58,611 bases of DNA from Cytophagales bacterium (lineage in GTDB: Bacteria; Bacteroidota; Bacteroidia; Cytophagales; Spirosomataceae): NCBI GenBank assembly GCA_013298025.1, contig JAAFJE010000026.1, positions 1 to 58,611 on the forward strand, read 5' to 3'. The translations under genes and the position numbers were made by a program. The stretch's first letter is position 1; each line of letters opens with the position of its first letter. Under the pieces are notes generated by a model, which was given only the letters and a program-made list of their open reading frames with translations, was not told where the DNA came from and searched no databases. This document shows, piece after piece, positions 194 to 57,679 of the stretch.

Positions 194-1195
194 ATGAAAA
201 AAACATTCTTCTGTGTAGATGCACATACTTGTGGAAATCCTGTGCGATTGGTCGCTGGTGGCGGCCCTACGCTCGAAGGGAATAATATGAGCGAAAAACG
301 CCAGTTTTTCCTCCAAAACTACGACTGGATTAGAAAAGGGCTGATGTTTGAACCCCGTGGTCACGATATGATGAGTGGGAGTATTTTGTATCCGCCTCAT
401 AGTCCAGAAAACGACGTAGCTGTACTTTTTATCGAAACCAGTGGTTGCTTGCCTATGTGTGGGCATGGTACTATCGGCACGATAACCATTGCCGTAGAAG
501 AAGGCTTAATTACGCCCAAAGAGCAAGGCAAAATCCGTATGGAAGCACCTGCTGGCTTGGTATTGATTGAATACAAACAAGAAGGCACAAAGGTAAAAAG
601 TGTAAAACTAACCAACGTGGCATCGTTCTTGGCGGCTACCGATTTGAGTGTAGAATGTCCTGATTTGGGTATGATTACCGTAGATGTTTCGTATGGTGGA
701 AACTTTTATGCCATTGTTGATGTGCAAGCTAATTTCAAAGGCTTACAACATTATACTGCCGACCAACTGATTAGTTGGAGTAGAGTACTGCGAAACCGTA
801 TCAACGAACAATATTCTTTTGTACATCCCGAAAACGAAACCATCAAAGGTTGTTCGCATATTTTGTGGACAGGCGATGTGTTAGACCCAAGTTCAACGGC
901 TCGTAATGCTGTATTTTACGGCGATAAAGCCATCGACCGCTCGCCTTGCGGAACGGGTACTTCGGCACGTATGGCACAATGGTACGCCAAAGGGAAGTTG
1001 AAAAAAGGCGATGAATTTATTCATGAAAGTATTATTGGTTCTAAGTTTATCGGCAGAATAGAGGAAGAAACAAGCGTAGGAGGCAAGCCTGCCATGAAAC
1101 CAAGTATTGAAGGTTGGGCAAGAATTTATGGCTACAATACCATCAGCATCGACCCAGAAGACGACCCGTATGCGTATGGTTTTCAGGTACTTTAG
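194..1195 (+). CDS. 4-hydroxyproline epimerase / proline racemase family
   Basis: A cofactor-independent epimerase of 333 residues, the usual length for the proline racemase superfamily. Two catalytic cysteines are visible: Cys89 in PMCGHGTIG and Cys252 in SPCGTGTSAR. These are the two acid/base thiols that invert the alpha carbon. Family members with two cysteines include 4-hydroxyproline 2-epimerase (trans-4-hydroxy-L-proline to cis-4-hydroxy-D-proline) and proline racemase. Hydroxyproline is favoured here because bacterial catabolic clusters usually carry that activity, but the specificity is inferred. The ATG at 194 opens directly with the conserved KKTFFCVDAHT strand, while the earlier TTG at 98 would add repeat-derived residues. 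No hydroxyproline oxidase or deaminase follows, so downstream steps must be encoded elsewhere. Confidence 0.85.
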   Translation: MKKTFFCVDAHTCGNPVRLVAGGGPTLEGNNMSEKRQFFLQNYDWIRKGLMFEPRGHDMMSGSILYPPHSPENDVAVLFIETSGCLPMCGHGTIGTITIAVEEGLITPKEQGKIRMEAPAGLVLIEYKQEGTKVKSVKLTNVASFLAATDLSVECPDLGMITVDVSYGGNFYAIVDVQANFKGLQHYTADQLISWSRVLRNRINEQYSFVHPENETIKGCSHILWTGDVLDPSSTARNAVFYGDKAIDRSPCGTGTSARMAQWYAKGKLKKGDEFIHESIIGSKFIGRIEEETSVGGKPAMKPSIEGWARIYGYNTISIDPEDDPYAYGFQVL

Positions 1196-1416
1196 TGAAT
1201 CAGTTGTGAGTTAGTCAATTGTGAATGAGTGAATAATAGTTTTTTTTAAATAGAATAGTTTAGTCGCTCATTCACCCCCTCACTCGTTCACAATTAACTA
1301 ATGTATAAATTGTGAATTGTGAATAAGTTAATACCAGATATTTTCATAATAGAATTATTCATTCACTAACTCACAACTCACTCATTCACAATTAAATAAT
1401 TACTCATCAACAAACT
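1193..1416. repeat. Alternating complementary repeat arrays filling the epimerase-permease gap
   Basis: The array starts exactly at the TAG stop codon: TAGTGAATCAGTTGTGAGT, then TAGTCAATTGTGAAT, then GAGTGAATAA (1193-1237). It then switches to the complementary form (CTCATTCACC..CTCACTCGTTCACAATTAACTAAT, about 1267-1305), back to the direct form (ATTGTGAATTGTGAATAAGTTAAT, about 1310-1333), and back to the complementary form (ATTCATTCACTAACTCACAAC.., about 1356-1398). The transcript could therefore fold into two long imperfect stem-loops between the two genes. No standard terminator with a T-tract is present. Confidence 0.75.
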
Positions 1417-2814
1417 ATGTCCAACGAACAACCTTCTTTCAAACGCTCTTTTCGGCTATTCGATGCCACCATGATTGTGGCTGGCTCGATGATTGGCTCA
1501 GGTATTTTTATCGTAAGTTCCGATATTGTCCGAAATGTTGGCTCGGTAGGAGGCTTGCTCGTTGTGTGGTTACTTACGGGCTTACTTACCGTTGCGGCTG
1601 CCGTCAGTTATGGCGAACTCAGCAGTATGTTCCCCAAAGCAGGCGGACAGTACGTTTACCTCAAAGAAGCCTTCAATCCCTTGATAGGCTTTTTGTATGG
1701 TTGGAGTTTCTTTGCGGTGATTCAAACGGGGTCTATTGCCGCCGTTGGGGTCGCTTTTAGTAAATTTTCGGCTTACCTTTTTCCTGTATTAAGCGAAAAA
1801 AACATCCTTTTTTCCATAGCAGGACTACAAATTTCTGCGGCACAACTTACTTCTATTGCCCTCATTATTTTTCTTTCGTACATCAATACCAAAGGCGTAC
1901 AATACGGCAAATACGTACAATCTATCTTTACCGTCACCAAACTTTTAGCTTTATTTGGCTTGGTGATTTTTGGTTTCGTCCTAACAGCCAACGCCGATAC
2001 TTGGCATAAGAACTGGGAAACAGGCTTTACTTTTCAGCAACTTACGCCCACGGGCTTTTTGCCTTATACAGGTATGGCTGCCTTCGGGGCAATTGCCGCC
2101 AGTATGGTTGGGAGTCTTTTCAGTAGTGATTCTTGGAACAACGTTACCTTTATTGCGGGCGAAATTCAAAACCCCAAACGCAATATTGGTCTGAGCCTAT
2201 TTTTAGGTACACTCATTGTGACGAGTATTTATATGCTTGCCAATATTATGTACGTTTCGGTATTAGATTTACCTGCCATCGCTTTTGCAGAAAACGACCG
2301 TGTGGGAGTTGTAGCTTCGCAAATGATTTTCGGAGAAAAAGGAACAATGATTGTAGCGGTTTTCTTAATGATTTCAACCTTTGGTTGCGACAACGGCTTG
2401 ATTCTTTCGGGGGCAAGGGTGTATTATACGATGGCAACTGATGGCTTATTTTTCAAAAAAGTAGGCGAACTCAACAAAAATGGCGTACCCGAAAAAGCCT
2501 TGTGGATTCAATGTTTTTGGGCTTCGGCTTTGTGTTTGAGTGGCAAGTACGGCGAATTGTTAGACTACGTTATTTTTGCGGTATTGATTTTTTATGCTTT
2601 AACGATACTCGGCATTATCCGACTACGGATTAAAAAACCAGAGCTTGAGCGTCCATACAAAGCCTTTGGTTATCCTTTTATTCCATTGTTGTACATTGTC
2701 ACGGCGGCTTGTATTTGTGTTTTATTGCTAATCTATAAACCCAATTACACTTGGCCCGGCTTAGGCTTGGTACTTTTGGGCATTCCTGTTTTTTATGTAC
2801 TGAAAAAAAGTTAG
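1417..2814 (+). CDS. APC-superfamily amino-acid permease
   Basis: A hydrophobic protein of 465 residues with about 12 membrane segments, typical of amino acid-polyamine-organocation transporters. The first helix carries the family glycine motif (IVAGSMIGSGIFIV, about residues 20-33), which lines the substrate site. The FPKAGGQYVYLKEAF segment (about residues 72-86) matches the loop and start of helix 3 in LAT/YfnA-type transporters. It probably imports an amino acid by proton symport or exchange. Its position between a hydroxyproline epimerase and a GH127 arabinofuranosidase suggests hydroxyproline or proline as substrate, which is an inference from context. Its TAG stop is also the first triplet of a 15-bp repeat array. 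Confidence 0.85.
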   Translation: MSNEQPSFKRSFRLFDATMIVAGSMIGSGIFIVSSDIVRNVGSVGGLLVVWLLTGLLTVAAAVSYGELSSMFPKAGGQYVYLKEAFNPLIGFLYGWSFFAVIQTGSIAAVGVAFSKFSAYLFPVLSEKNILFSIAGLQISAAQLTSIALIIFLSYINTKGVQYGKYVQSIFTVTKLLALFGLVIFGFVLTANADTWHKNWETGFTFQQLTPTGFLPYTGMAAFGAIAASMVGSLFSSDSWNNVTFIAGEIQNPKRNIGLSLFLGTLIVTSIYMLANIMYVSVLDLPAIAFAENDRVGVVASQMIFGEKGTMIVAVFLMISTFGCDNGLILSGARVYYTMATDGLFFKKVGELNKNGVPEKALWIQCFWASALCLSGKYGELLDYVIFAVLIFYALTILGIIRLRIKKPELERPYKAFGYPFIPLLYIVTAACICVLLLIYKPNYTWPGLGLVLLGIPVFYVLKKS

Positions 2815-49557: not shown

Positions 49558-51462
49558 ATGGCCAAAAGACATAACAATTTCGGAACAGAAGTAGAAGCCG
49601 AAGACAAAAAGAAAATCAACAAAGACGGCTTATTAAAAGCATGGTCTATTTTCAAATTTACAAGCCCCTATAAAGGAACATTTGCCATTGGCTTTATTTT
49701 TTTGATACTCTCTCAACTCACGTCTATGAGTGTACCTTTGCTCATGGGACAAATGGTTTCTTCGATTTTAGGCCCTAATCAAACGGCATCTAATCAAACT
49801 TTACCTAGCAGTGCCATGCTGGGGGCGAGTCCTTTGGGGCGGCAAATGAAAGATACCGTATTGGGATTGCCCAAATTATCGCTCGACCAAATGACCATTT
49901 TATTTTTGGTGATATTGGCGGCTCAAGCTTTGTTTTCGTTTTTTAGGGTATATACTTTTTCTAGGGTTTCAGAAAAGTCGATGCGTGACGTTCGGAAGGC
50001 ATTGTATAGCAAAATCATGTCGTTGCCTTTGACATTTTTCGAGAAAAACCGTGTAGGCGATTTGATGAGCCGTATTACGTCTGATGTAACCCAGTTGCAA
50101 GATGTGCTTTCGATTACCTTGGCAGAGTTTTTCCGACAAATTTTTACGTTGGTTGGTGGTATTTGCTTGATTGTATATTTTTCTGGAAAACTCACCCTTT
50201 TCATGCTTTCTACCTTTCCTTTTTTGGTGATAGCCGCCTTTTTCTTTGGTCGATTTATTCGTAAAAATGCCAAAAAAGTACAAGACGAATTGGCTCAAAC
50301 CAATGTGATTGTCGAAGAAACGTTACAATCGGTACACGTAGTGAAAGCCTTTACCAACGAACGGCTGGAAATCCAACGCTATGGCTCTTCGCTTGAAAAA
50401 GTATTGAATTGGGCTTTGAAAACCGCAACCTTTCGAGGAAGCTTTATATCATTTATCATTTTTGTGCTTTTTGGGGCTATTGTCGGCGTAGTGTGGTACG
50501 GTGGTCATTTGGTACAAAACCATGAATTGACTTTCGATAAACTCCTGACCTTCATCATTTATACAGGATTTATCGGAGGCTCGGTTGGGGGCTTGGGCGA
50601 TATGTATGCCCAAATTCAAAGAACGATTGGGGCAGCAGGAAGAATTTTAGAAATTTTAGACGAAAAAGAAGAAATAGATTTACAAAGCCCTATTCCTTCT
50701 ACGCCAATTCAAGGCGAAATTGCGTATCAGCAAGTGGCTTTTGCGTATCCTTCTCGTCCTGATGTGCCAGTGTTGAAAGATATTTCTTTCCAAATAAAAA
50801 AAGGCGAAAAAATTGCCTTGGTCGGTTATTCGGGCGGAGGAAAATCAACGATTGTGTCGTTGTTGATGCGTTACTATCGCTTGTCGGAAGGACAAATTTT
50901 GGTCGATGGCAAAGACTTACAATCCTACAACATCACAGCCTTGCGTAGCCATATTGCCATTGTACCGCAAGAAGTGATGCTTTTTGGAGGCACAATTTAT
51001 GAAAATATTGCCTACGGAAAACCAGAAGCAACCGAAGCCGAAATCAGAGAAGCAGCAAGGCAAGCCAATGCCTTAGATTTTATCGAATCTTTCCCCGAAA
51101 AATTCCAAACAATTGTAGGCGAAAGAGGCGTAAAGCTATCGGGTGGGCAACGTCAACGCATCGCCATTGCAAGAGCCATTTTGAAAAATCCGGCTATTTT
51201 GATTTTAGACGAAGCTACCAGTGCTTTAGATTCGGAATCAGAAAAACTGGTACAAGATGCCTTGGATAAATTGATGCAAAATCGAACTACCATTATCATT
51301 GCTCACCGCTTGGCTACCATCCGCCACGTCGATACCATTTATGTACTCAAAGATGGGGCAATTGCCGAATCGGGTAAACACGACGATTTAATTTTGCTCG
51401 AAGAAGGAATTTATGCAAATTTGGTGAAATTACAATATGAAAGCAGCCTCATTGGCGAATAA
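49558..51462 (+). CDS. ABC exporter (MsbA/MDR-like, fused membrane and ATPase domains)
   Basis: A protein of 634 residues. After a charged N-terminus, six membrane helices (about residues 40-350) are followed by the ATPase: Walker A GYSGGGKST, Q-loop PQEVMLFGGT, signature LSGGQRQRIAIARA, and Walker B ILILDEATSALD. It works as a homodimer exporting lipids or hydrophobic compounds. An extra loop between helices 1 and 2 (about residues 80-110) is enriched in Ser/Thr/Gln. It ends three bases before the Fur-family gene, so they are co-transcribed. Confidence 0.92.
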   Translation: MAKRHNNFGTEVEAEDKKKINKDGLLKAWSIFKFTSPYKGTFAIGFIFLILSQLTSMSVPLLMGQMVSSILGPNQTASNQTLPSSAMLGASPLGRQMKDTVLGLPKLSLDQMTILFLVILAAQALFSFFRVYTFSRVSEKSMRDVRKALYSKIMSLPLTFFEKNRVGDLMSRITSDVTQLQDVLSITLAEFFRQIFTLVGGICLIVYFSGKLTLFMLSTFPFLVIAAFFFGRFIRKNAKKVQDELAQTNVIVEETLQSVHVVKAFTNERLEIQRYGSSLEKVLNWALKTATFRGSFISFIIFVLFGAIVGVVWYGGHLVQNHELTFDKLLTFIIYTGFIGGSVGGLGDMYAQIQRTIGAAGRILEILDEKEEIDLQSPIPSTPIQGEIAYQQVAFAYPSRPDVPVLKDISFQIKKGEKIALVGYSGGGKSTIVSLLMRYYRLSEGQILVDGKDLQSYNITALRSHIAIVPQEVMLFGGTIYENIAYGKPEATEAEIREAARQANALDFIESFPEKFQTIVGERGVKLSGGQRQRIAIARAILKNPAILILDEATSALDSESEKLVQDALDKLMQNRTTIIIAHRLATIRHVDTIYVLKDGAIAESGKHDDLILLEEGIYANLVKLQYESSLIGE

Positions 51463-51465
51463 TTT

Positions 51466-51906
51466 ATGGATACCAAGGCTATCAAACATACACTCAAGGC
51501 ATATAGCCTTCGTCAAACCGAGTGCCGAGAAGAAATTTTGGCAATTTTTCTCAACAAAGCTCATGCGTTGGCCCATGCCGATGTAGAAACACAAATGTCA
51601 GAGAAATTTGACCGAGTAACGGTGTATCGTACCCTGAAAACGTTTTTAGACAAAGGGTTAATCCATAAAGTACTCGACGACGAAGGTAGTATCAAATACG
51701 CTTTATGCAAAGATAATTGTCACCAAGACGACCACCATCACCACCACGACCATGTGCATTTTAAGTGCAGTTCCTGCGGACTTACCACTTGTCTCGACCA
51801 CGTGGTGATTCCGGCTGTAGTGCTACCCGAAGGCTACAAACGTGTAGAAACCAATTTGTTGGTACAGGGCGTTTGTAAAGATTGCAATGCAAAACAACTG
51901 GGCTAA
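51466..51906 (+). CDS. Fur-family metal-responsive regulator with His-rich insert (Zur/Fur)
   Basis: A cytoplasmic repressor of 146 residues. The winged-helix part contains VTVYRTLKTFLDKGLI (about residues 51-66). The structural zinc site is Cys101-x-x-Cys104 and Cys137-x-x-Cys140. Between domains lies a run of histidines (residues 86-98, HQDDHHHHHDHVH), suggesting extra metal binding. Fur, Zur and PerR cannot be told apart safely. The nearby zinc-type locus at 55416-57679 with three palindromic boxes makes Zur a good guess. It lies three bases after the ABC exporter gene. Confidence 0.88.
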   Translation: MDTKAIKHTLKAYSLRQTECREEILAIFLNKAHALAHADVETQMSEKFDRVTVYRTLKTFLDKGLIHKVLDDEGSIKYALCKDNCHQDDHHHHHDHVHFKCSSCGLTTCLDHVVIPAVVLPEGYKRVETNLLVQGVCKDCNAKQLG

Positions 51907-53974: not shown

Positions 53975-54152
53975 ATAAAGTAAAATTTTAACCATAAAAT
54001 ATACACCAAGAGCGTAATTTATGGCTAGGTTTCCCAAGGAAAAACACACTTTCCTTGATTATTTTCAGCATTCTTCTTTCAAAAATCACGCATAATTTTT
54101 AACTTTAGCTATATTAGAACGTCCTTACCCAAGCTGAAATTTGTTAAAAATT

Positions 54153-55346
54153 ATGTTTGATAGCTTCTCTTTTCTGTGCATATCGACCCATTTTAAAGGA
54201 AATGACTTTCTGAAATCCCTCAAATTGGCAGGGAATAAAGTCTATTTGCTTACCCATCGGCAGTTACAGCATCGCCCTTGGGCTTGGGATAGCATCGACA
54301 ATACGTTTTATTTAGAAGAAAAATACGATGGTTCGCTCGACCTACAAGCAACAATCCTGAGCATGAGCTATGTGATGCGCACCCGACGCATCGACAGAAT
54401 TGTGGCCCTCGACGACGTAGATGTAGAAACCGCCGCCGCTTTGCGTGAGCATTTTCGGATTCCGGGCATGGGGCAAAGCACCAGTCGCCATTTTCGTGAT
54501 AAACTTGCCATGCGTATCAAGGCAATTGAGGCAGGCATTGCTGTACCAGCTTTTTCTTCGCTTTTCAACGACAATGATTTATTTGTTTTTGCCCAAAAAG
54601 TAAAATTTCCGTGCGTGGTAAAGCCTCGCTTCAATACTTCGGCTTTTAGTGTAAAAAAAGTGAACAATGCGGCAGAATTATGGGAAGTGGTGCATCATTT
54701 GGGCGAGCATCGCCCCGATTATCTGGTAGAGCAGTTTCGTGCGGGTACCGTCTATCATGTCGATGCCCTTGGGATGCACGGTCATATCATTTTTTCTCGT
54801 TGCAGCGAATACCTCGAAGCACCCTTCGATGTGGTGCTGAGTTCGGGTATTTTTCGCTCGGCAATTTTGCCTTTTGGTTCAGAAGAAGAACAAATTTTAA
54901 CGCAATTAAATGATAAAATCCTAAAAACCTTCGGGATGCAATACAGTGCTTTGCATTCTGAATATATCAAAGATGCCGAAACGGGCGAATTGTTGTTTTT
55001 AGATACCGAAACGATTGTTGGAGGCGTACACACCGCCGAAATGGTAGAGGCTTCGTCGGGTATCAATCTTTGGCATGAGTGGGCTATGGTCGAAACGGCG
55101 GTAGCATGGGGTATTCCTTATCAATTGCCTAGCTTGCACTACAACTACGCAGGAATGCTCACTGCGCCTACTCGCCAACGACTGCCGAATGTGTTGCTTT
55201 TTGAAGACCCTGAAATTTATTGGAAAATGGATGAAGATTTTCAAGTAGGTTTGATTGTGCAATCGCCAGAGCGAGCTAGGGTCTTGGAATTGCTAGATAA
55301 GTATCGTAAACAAATTGCTCAATACACACAACGAAGGCAAGTATGA
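54153..55346 (+). CDS. ATP-grasp domain protein
   Basis: A cytoplasmic protein of 397 residues. The N-terminal part resembles a pre-ATP-grasp Rossmann-like domain (FLCISTHFKGNDFLKSLKLAG). The ATP-grasp core includes FPCVVKPRFNTSAFSVKKV (ATP-binding lysine, about residues 150-168), DYLVEQF, and FLDTETIVGGVHTAEM near residue 290, with the late acidic metal ligands. Such enzymes ligate a carboxylate to an amine or thiol. The partner substrates cannot be named. I start at the ATG at 54153; the only earlier in-frame start is a TTG at 54141. Confidence 0.8.
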   Translation: MFDSFSFLCISTHFKGNDFLKSLKLAGNKVYLLTHRQLQHRPWAWDSIDNTFYLEEKYDGSLDLQATILSMSYVMRTRRIDRIVALDDVDVETAAALREHFRIPGMGQSTSRHFRDKLAMRIKAIEAGIAVPAFSSLFNDNDLFVFAQKVKFPCVVKPRFNTSAFSVKKVNNAAELWEVVHHLGEHRPDYLVEQFRAGTVYHVDALGMHGHIIFSRCSEYLEAPFDVVLSSGIFRSAILPFGSEEEQILTQLNDKILKTFGMQYSALHSEYIKDAETGELLFLDTETIVGGVHTAEMVEASSGINLWHEWAMVETAVAWGIPYQLPSLHYNYAGMLTAPTRQRLPNVLLFEDPEIYWKMDEDFQVGLIVQSPERARVLELLDKYRKQIAQYTQRRQV

Positions 55347-55415: not shown

Positions 55416-55970
55416 CTAATTTACAGTCACTTCAAACTCAGCACTGAAATCGGTACTTCCTTTGGCTGTTCCATCTTTGATTGGTGTTCCGTTTTGAGGA
55501 GGTTGATGGTAAAGCACTACCTGTAGTTTTCCTGTTCCTGCTGCACCTACAACTGCCGAAGCTTGTAAGCCAATTTCATAATTGCGGCTATCTTTGTCGG
55601 TTCTTTTTACGGTCATCAGGCTAGTGGGCGTAGGCGTATAAACAAACAAATGCTCATCGCTTTTTTCCTCTATTTCAGTGGTAATATTTTCTACAGGATT
55701 TTTACTTTCGTCTAATACCGTCACCGCCAAGGTGTAAGTAGCGTTGGCTTTGAGCGTTATTTTATCAATAGTGGGAGCATTGCCTCCAATGCCATCTACA
55801 TCTTTATAAGTAAAAATGCTTGCCTTGCCATCCTTATCTGTAAATGTAAGTTTGAGCGTAGTAAGATTTTCACTATCATCTACGGGGTTTGGCTCATCTT
55901 TCTTGCAACTTGTCACGACAAAAAAGCTTGATAACAAAAGAAATAGTACTGGTTTTGTGTAAGGTCTCAT
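55416..55970 (-). CDS. Predicted lipoprotein of a metal-responsive locus
   Basis: A protein of 184 residues with a lipoprotein signal (LLLSSFFVVTSC, Cys22). The mature part, with TTLKLTFTDKDGKASIFTYKD, ITLKANATYTLAVTVLDESK and a tail with AEFEVTV, looks like a single beta-sandwich/lipocalin-like fold. I recall similar lipoproteins near zinc-uptake receptors in Bacteroidota, but the function is not established. It shares a divergent promoter region with the MerC/COG0523 operon and is covered by the same three palindromic boxes, so it is probably under the same metal control. Confidence 0.7.
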   Translation of the reverse strand: MRPYTKPVLFLLLSSFFVVTSCKKDEPNPVDDSENLTTLKLTFTDKDGKASIFTYKDVDGIGGNAPTIDKITLKANATYTLAVTVLDESKNPVENITTEIEEKSDEHLFVYTPTPTSLMTVKRTDKDSRNYEIGLQASAVVGAAGTGKLQVVLYHQPPQNGTPIKDGTAKGSTDFSAEFEVTVN

Positions 55971-55999: not shown

Positions 56000-56095
56000 T
56001 GCAATAGTGTTGCAAAAATAAAGAATAATTATAATGTTTTCGCAACAATATTGCAAATATATATTTTCACCTCTTATATTTGCAATATTGTTGCA
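56000..56095. promoter_or_regulatory. Divergent promoters with three phased 15-bp palindromic operators (Zur-like)
   Basis: Three near-identical boxes: TGCAATAGTGTTGCA (56000-56014), CGCAACAATATTGCA (56041-56055, inverted) and TGCAATATTGTTGCA (56081-56095). All have 7-1-7 dyad symmetry. The minus promoter uses CAA at 56043-56045 (-33, TTG on that strand) and TATTTTTG (56020-56013). The plus promoter uses TTG 56051-56053 and TATATTTG (56075-56082). So box 2 covers both -33 elements, box 1 the minus -7, box 3 the plus -7. The boxes start 41 and 40 bp apart, about four helical turns. Repression by one metal sensor would shut both genes. Confidence 0.8.
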
Positions 56096-56114: not shown

Positions 56115-56495
56115 ATGAAAAATCTCATCAATAGCACTGCCGATTACGTAGGCATTGCGGGTTCGAGTCTTTGTTTGGTACACTGTTTGGCAACGCCAGT
56201 ATTGATGATTTTGCGTTGGTATGAATGTTGTTATTTTTTAGAGGCGGCTTGGTGGGATTATTGTTTTCTTCTCATTTGTTTCATCGCTGTTTTTTATACC
56301 ACCCGAACGCATCAGTCTGTGGGTTTGGTATGGGCGTTTTGGCTTGCATTTGGTGCTTTTGCTGTAGCCATTTTATTTGAAGACGATTTTGTTTTTGCTC
56401 CATACTTGGGTTATGGGGCTTCATTGCTGTTGATTATCATACATATTTTTAACATAAGATTTTGTAAAAAATGTCAAACAAAAAACTTCCAGTAA
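56115..56495 (+). CDS. MerC-domain membrane protein
   Basis: A protein of 126 residues with four membrane helices. The first helix holds [15 protein letters not shown] with the Cys-x-x-x-Cys pair of MerC-type proteins, and the C-terminus ends in FCKKCQTKN, a second thiol pair. MerC proteins in mercury operons import Hg(II). Bacteroidota copies next to COG0523 GTPases are probably zinc or other soft-metal handling. The stop overlaps the start of the GTPase gene by 25 nt, so the two are co-translated. Confidence 0.82.
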
Positions 56496-57679
56496 CCGTC
56501 CTAAGTGGATTCCTCGGTTCGGGTAAAACGACTTTGCTCAATCATATTTTGCATAATAAAGAAGACCTCAAAGTGGCTGTTATCGTAAATGATATGAGCG
56601 AAATCAATATAGATGCCCAATTGGTGAAACAAGAAAATGTGCTATCTCGTACCGAAGAGCGACTCGTAGAGATGTCGAACGGCTGTATTTGCTGTACCTT
56701 GCGAGAAGATTTGATGGTAGAAGTAGAAAAACTGGCCAAGGAAAATCGCTTCGATTATCTCATCATCGAATCAACGGGGATTTCCGAACCTTTGCCCGTG
56801 GCTCAAACCTTTTCTTATATAGACGAAAACAGTGGTATTGATTTGTCAAAATTTGCCCAACTCGATACAATGGTAACGGTTGTCGATTGTTTTAATTTTG
56901 CCAAAGATTTTGGTTCATTCGATACCATTTTTACAAGAAATCTAAATGAAAGCGACCCCAATGATGGGCGTACTATTGTCAACTTATTAACCGACCAAAT
57001 AGAATTTGCCAATGTTATTATCTTAAACAAAACGGATTTATTAACGCCTCACCAATTAGGAGAATTAAAAGCGATAATTCAAAAACTAAATCCTGATGCT
57101 AAAATCCTGACAAGTACTTTTGGTAAAGTAGCCCCTCAAGAGATTTTGCGTACAGGACTTTTCGATTTTGAAGTCGCTTCACAGTCGGCAGGATGGATGC
57201 AAGAATTGACTAAGCCCAACCATACGCCCGAAACAGAAGAGTATGGTATTAGTTCATTTGTTTTTAGAGATGCTCGTCCTTTTCATCCCGAAAGATTTTG
57301 GAATTACATCACGGAAAACTGGCCAGCAGGTATTATTCGCTCTAAAGGATTGTTTTGGTTGGCTTCTCGCCCGAAAGATGCCCTCAATTGGGGACAAGCC
57401 GGAGGCTCGCTCCGTGCCGATGCCGCAGGCACGTGGTGGGCTGGTGTGCCCGAATGGGAACGCCCTTTTTATGCTGCATGGAAAGAAAATAAAAAAGAAC
57501 TCATGAAACGCTGGGACAAACGCTTTGGCGATAGAATAAACGAATTGGTCATCATCGGACAAGAGTTAGACAAAACACAAATCCTACAAGAGTTGGAGGC
57601 TTGTTTATGCAATGAAGCAGAAATTCAACAAATGCAGGCTAAAAAGTCATTTAATGACCCCTTTCCTGTGTTTCAATAA
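56471..57679 (+). CDS. COG0523-family metal-chaperone GTPase (ZigA/YciC/CobW-like)
   Basis: A cytoplasmic GTPase of 402 residues. Walker A is GFLGSGKTT (13-21). The metal site Cys72-x-Cys74-Cys75 lies in [10 protein letters not shown], Walker B/switch is [10 protein letters not shown], and the base motif NKTD is present. The C-terminal CobW_C domain (from about residue 255) follows. Members deliver zinc or other metals to client enzymes and are commonly under Zur when in such operons. The ATG overlaps merC, and the promoter upstream carries three palindromic boxes. Confidence 0.92.

Follow-up and report, generated by a model that had tools for sequence, protein, structure and literature searches.

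The region between a lipoprotein gene and a merC-type gene in the 58,611 bp stretch of Cytophagales DNA analysed here (the window, contig C19 of a 5.44 Mb genome) is, judging from sequence comparison, very probably a divergent zinc-starvation promoter under the control of a Zur-type protein encoded at 51466-51906. It contains three near-identical 15 bp palindromes: box 1 on the lipoprotein side (56000-56014, TGCAATAGTGTTGCA), box 2 in the middle (56041-56055, CGCAACAATATTGCA) and box 3 on the merC side (56081-56095, TGCAATATTGTTGCA). Their starts lie 41 bp (boxes 1 and 2) and 40 bp (boxes 2 and 3) apart, with 25-26 bp between boxes, and these coordinates reproduce those of the original prediction. 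Sigma-A promoters of Bacteroidota have an upstream TTG at -33, at a characteristic distance from the -7 element. Two such promoters are predicted face-to-face on the array. The merC promoter (56051-56082, plus strand) has its -33 TTG at 56051-56053 and its -7 element, TATATTTG, at 56075-56082, with a gap of 21 bp; the lipoprotein promoter (56013-56045, minus strand) has its -33 TTG at 56045-56043 and its -7 element, TATTTTTG, at 56020-56013, with a gap of 22 bp. In both directions the -7 consensus TAnnTTTG, as given in PMC9723704, is combined with an upstream TTG. The middle box carries both -33 TTGs, as had been proposed; the outer boxes, which had been said to cover the -7 elements, abut and reach them, but share only two bases with each. 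Pairs of -33 and -7 elements are not rare, 20 being present on the two strands of the window at gaps of 19-23; one extra minus-strand pair (-33 at 56085-56083, -7 at 56061-56054) is peculiar to genome G000, and a different one to G008.

The array has the palindromic, promoter-overlapping position expected of a Zur operator. Zinc-loaded Zur would bind all three palindromes: the middle dimer would cover the -33 element in each direction, and each outer dimer would hide the -7 element and start region of the promoter on its side. With plentiful zinc both directions would be shut together and with scarce zinc both would open together, yielding the lipoprotein in one direction and, in the other, a MerC membrane protein with a COG0523 chaperone. 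We infer binding by the 51466-51906 protein, repression, zinc as the signal and the transcript starts; zinc control of the array is likely.

The boxes stand out clearly from background. The symmetric consensus TGCAAYANTRTTGCA, with at most one mismatch, matches three times in the window against 0.14 expected, and three or more matches occurred in 0 of 100 shuffles. The excess is confined to close matches, because the looser pattern used originally, with three mismatches, gives 13 matches against 11 expected and hence no excess. Across the genome the exact consensus occurs at four places, against none in the reversed control: two in the window array, one before a second merC, one before a TonB-receptor gene, and nowhere else. 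The random occurrence that would have spoken against the original prediction was therefore not seen, and the exact motif stands only before zinc-type genes. Tolerating one mismatch raises the count to 14, against five in the control; six of these are the window array, the pair at the second merC and the receptor-gene site, while the other eight (six within ORFs, two intergenic) are distributed as background would be. An intergenic one-mismatch box at L018:4269-4283, approximately 115 bp ahead of an ORF whose beginning resembles that of a SusC-type receptor, may likewise be background. At the second merC (C15:60986; PF03203, 73.3 bits, cut-off 27.6) the exact box lies just upstream and has a one-mismatch partner 27 bp away. 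At the TonB-receptor gene (C16:4784) the box falls inside the longest reading of the ORF, but 5' of a GTG codon that leads into a signal-peptide-like stretch; this GTG is taken as the true start, which would place the box upstream of the gene. Each of these two genes also has a -33 TTG within a box.

On the plus side the array precedes the merC-type gene (56115-56495, plus strand; Pfam MerC, PF03203, 58.8 bits, cut-off 27.6) and a COG0523 GTPase gene (56471-57679, plus strand; Pfam cobW, 195.8 bits). The latter is close to the NCBIfam model ZigA (NF038288), its 563.4 bits lying below the curated cut-off of 600. The TonB-receptor protein reaches 192 bits as a heme receptor and fewer, 99 bits, as ZnuD, all below cut-offs. 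COG0523 and TonB-receptor genes, both expected of a Zur regulon, lie behind boxes. A wider sample of 140 ORFs starting near boxes, biased in that its loci were chosen by motif or COG0523 and a few were fetched twice, comprised 24 lipoproteins, 21 MerC, 16 COG0523, 12 TonB receptors, 10 pyridine-nucleotide oxidoreductases, seven ABC ATPases, six AztD-like and four Fur/Zur-type proteins, with smaller groups and 20 singletons. This recurrence before such genes supports the earlier suggestion that the lipoprotein, MerC-like and COG0523 genes are of a zinc type. AztD-like lipoproteins stand behind boxes at L031:200-1423 and L114:825-2033, and the two that were scanned scored 81 and 101 bits against an NCBIfam cut-off of 400. 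The oxidoreductase gene that follows a box at ten loci (L071, L053, L064, L067, L079, L113, L117, L141, L150, L151) is thioredoxin-reductase-like; at L071 a second Fur-family paralogue (785-1267, minus strand) lies divergently beside it (1547-2446, plus strand), and the box may therefore be shared with a further regulator.

The candidate regulator (51466-51906, plus strand; 146 aa) is a Fur-family protein (Pfam FUR, 36.8 bits, cut-off 23.1), and looks Zur-like. Its nearest solved chains are Zur 2o03 (E 3.2e-8) and Zur 3mwm (6.2e-6), followed by Fur 9ire (1.2e-5), with E. coli Zur far down the ranking (E 0.014); NCBIfam gives 32.2 bits for Fur and 27.4 for Zur, where the cut-offs, 220 and 167, are both far above. 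In an alignment of 30 sequences, consisting of the window protein and relatives from loci L083-L111, 13 Cys/His positions are invariant in 30/30 (H37, H67, C81, C85, H92, H94, H96, H98, C101, C104, C109, C137, C140). Among them are the ligands looked for in a Zur, namely the CxxC pairs C101/C104 and C137/C140 with C81, H92, H94, H96 and H98, to which we ascribe structural or ligand roles by analogy with known Zurs. The window scan, with at most one mismatch to the consensus, finds no box near zur itself. In the run 49558-51906 (plus strand) zur begins three bases after an ABC transporter gene, with an LptF/LptG-like gene next, and the neighbours are the same at the same-genus locus L083.

A Zur-like protein might read the boxes and yet sense manganese, nickel or cobalt, since metal specificity is not readable from sequence with certainty, and both the MerC and the COG0523 family act on more than one metal. 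We regard this as unlikely: the nearest solved relatives are zinc regulators, the nearest named models of the targets, ZigA and AztD, are zinc proteins, and ZnuA gave no match in the 37 genomes of the family to which the window belongs. The divergent promoter is probably of Zur type and repressed by zinc.

The array is kept in five relatives, the six genomes in which it was found (G000-G004 and G008) representing two genera. Both promoters sit on it in all six, which bears out the proposal of one array over both promoters, and the 40-41 bp spacing is retained. When G000 is compared with the other five, each box differs at one or two of its 15 bases, whereas the ungapped spacers agree at 11-18 of 25-26. 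A triple-box scan of the collection returned at least 120 stretches, of which the 80 listed (L161-L240) were examined; a filter against similar spacers left eight loci, and among these a 40/40 array occurred only in L225 and L190. L225 (Flectobacillus longus) equals G001, which is placed in the window's genus, over 4203/4203 bases around the locus, so that the window comes from a Flectobacillus-like bacterium. L190 is a Flectobacillus-like locus whose COG0523 protein is 87% identical over 206 aa; the record, titled Cellulophaga sp. BC115SP, may be misnamed. Two good boxes 39 bp apart precede a merC-like gene in L234 (Saprospiraceae), and the other filtered loci look like repeats. In the phylum the exact motif was found in 16/148 genomes, 15/142 outside the order, with three in the reversed control.

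The original prediction was of helically phased boxes to which a regulator binds cooperatively from one side of the DNA, and the retention of the 40-41 bp spacing in six genomes of two genera could be read in that way. The angles do not agree. At 10.5 bp per turn, 41 bp is 3.90 turns (326 degrees) and 40 bp is 3.81 turns (291 degrees), which leaves an angle of 257 degrees between boxes 1 and 3. The promoter elements are moreover kept alongside the boxes, and the promoter gap tracks the box spacing in the six genomes, a gap of 22 going with 41 bp and a gap of 21 with 40 bp. We also collected pairs of TGCAA-N5-TTGCA boxes from 390 genomes of the order. Pairs with starts 16-45 bp apart occur in 85 genomes and pairs 46-75 bp apart in 19, with none in the reversed control for either. 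Among the 75 pairs listed, 12 lie at 27-31 bp, 51 at 36-42 bp and 12 elsewhere (some of them tandem repeats), and the commonest spacings are 29, 36, 38 and 39 bp (binomial p 5e-11 against an even spread, uncorrected for kinship and with windows set after some spacings had been seen). The 63 pairs of the two main classes have a mean angle of 233 degrees and do not cluster at zero. On the angles and the spacing histogram we reject helical phasing as the cause of the spacing, and consider an arrangement for cooperation on one face improbable.

Promoter geometry explains the two spacing classes better than whole helical turns, since they would result if the TTG of one box served as the -33 element and the edge of the next as the -7. 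The promoter itself would then set the spacing, because the half-sites of the boxes are its -33 and -7 elements; operators seem to be superimposed on promoter elements, and phasing becomes unneeded. Among 142 distinct boxes, with 284 edges in all, TA occurs 6 bp before the edge in 90 cases, compared with 19-29 cases at each of the offsets -5 and -7 to -18; a higher TA peak at offset -4 is probably in part the second TA of TATATTTG. By strict consensus a full TAnnTTTG lies on an edge of 55 of these boxes and not on 87, and 45 contain a TTG at 17-23 bp from a -7 element while 97 do not; for the inner TTG, gaps of 19-21 hold 36 of 65.

The genome has one further Fur-family match (C4:67992-68480), and this protein, responding to iron or peroxide, might read the boxes instead. 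It is the stronger Pfam FUR match (101 bits, against 35), and the product of the receptor gene resembles heme receptors. COG0523, MerC and AztD-like targets do not, however, point to iron, and the distribution of the motif speaks for the protein in the window, in agreement with the original choice of a single Fur-family regulator. Across 59 genomes, in which 95 exact sites occur against two in the reversed control, the exact motif is present in 38/51 with a relative of the 51466-51906 protein and in 0/8 without (p 9e-5, kinship not corrected), 13/51 having the regulator and lacking the exact motif. Outside the window's family the figures are 9/13 with the regulator and 0/9 without, if a weak match in G050 is counted as absent. 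The other Fur occurs in 55/59 genomes, among them six motif-less ones in which the Zur match is missing (G038, G043, G046, G047 and G048) or weak (G050). We consider a role for the other Fur quite improbable. That the palindromes are no operator but merely a strong promoter, with TTTGC elements in either strand, is scarcely credible: box half-sites do coincide with -33 and -7 elements, but in each genome only a few genes have the full 15 bp palindrome, its presence follows that of the regulator, and the spacers have diverged more than the boxes.

If Zur controls them, the merC genes raise the matter of zinc import. MerC (PF03203) is a family of mercury resistance operons, and is known as a mercury protein; the genes here belong to the same Pfam family but, unlike those of mercury operons, lie behind Zur-type boxes, beside a COG0523 or zur-type gene. 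znuABC is common in Zur regulons without defining them. A search for ZnuA (PF01297) drew a blank in all 37 genomes that represent the family of the window, this one included and some being incomplete, so that znuABC is missing from the regulon; matches occur in 15/22 other genomes of the order and 11/14 controls. ZIP exceeds its cut-off in 6/37 family genomes, lies below it in three more, and has no match in this genome. MerC is found in 31/37 family genomes and 9/22 others of the order, and tends towards mutual exclusion with ZnuA (34, 6, 10, 9; Fisher p 0.012, without correction for kinship). A less biased sample than the regulon came from 30 Pfam loci, reduced to 28 MerC ORFs by a start rule: 24/28 have a box between -250 and +60 relative to the start, against a background of 0.025 per 310 bp. 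Of the 24, 22 match the consensus with no more than one mismatch and the other two fit TGCAA-N5-TTGCA; the rule places some starts too early, among them that of L293, which is counted as a match. MerC may be a zinc importer, because ZnuA is absent from the 37 genomes and ZIP from this one, and 24/28 MerC genes lie behind a box. Five genomes with none of the three importer families searched (MerC, ZnuA and ZIP), namely G010, G023, G028 (66% complete), G034 and G036, count against this. Tentatively, and with somewhat less than even confidence, we suggest that in Flectobacillus and its family zinc crosses the inner membrane mainly through Zur-controlled MerC, to which a TonB receptor and the lipoprotein, likewise under Zur, deliver it, and that Zur half-sites are fused with sigma-A elements in an array that is operator and promoter at once. 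The merC and zur-type genes lie 197-512 bp apart, as matched stretches, in at least eight genomes (G006, G014, G016, G018, G020, G027, G035, G051), or ten by eye.

The review PMC6103462 describes two Zur boxes, on the -35 and -10 elements, at yciC of Bacillus subtilis and znuA of Streptomyces coelicolor. The array resembles these in having more than one box, with one each on an upstream and a downstream promoter element, and resembles yciC also in having a COG0523 gene among its targets; it differs in its three boxes, in two face-to-face promoters that have the middle box in common, in box sequence, and in the Bacteroidota promoter elements within the boxes. As in the Zur-linked genes of Haas et al. 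2009 (PMC2770081), COG0523 lies 3' of a putative Zur site, but here merC precedes it in the same run. 'Bacteroid' and 'Flavobacter' are absent from that text, as is 'Bacteroid' from the main text of two Zur reviews (PMC6103462 and PMC8000910). Among the titles and abstract openings listed, from a library with few subscription journals, none dealt with Zur boxes in Bacteroidota or with MerC in zinc uptake. The logic of Zur control is known; new are the box, a lineage outside the reviews searched, the merged promoter and operator, and MerC where ZnuABC is expected. The results supply a concrete, testable candidate Zur box and regulon for Bacteroidota, suggest that operators are built onto promoter elements, which would explain box spacing without helical phasing, and raise the possibility that MerC, known from mercury, imports zinc where a ZnuA match is lacking.

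The lipoprotein gene (55416-55970, minus strand) encodes a protein whose family is modelled in neither Pfam nor NCBIfam: no match was found at E 0.001, and relatives gave only chance-like matches below cut-offs. Its predicted structure is a beta-sandwich (pLDDT 87.4), and a fold search found no convincing solved relative (best E 5.3e-4, rmsd 19.8). Across 19 members E34, H107, D127, H155 and D174 are invariant, and are possible metal ligands. Charged residues follow the lipid cysteine, which we take to be a signal for surface location, and our guess is that the protein resides at the cell surface. An ATP-grasp gene with weak similarity to D-Ala-D-Ala ligase (54141-55346, plus strand) adjoins the lipoprotein gene in convergent orientation.
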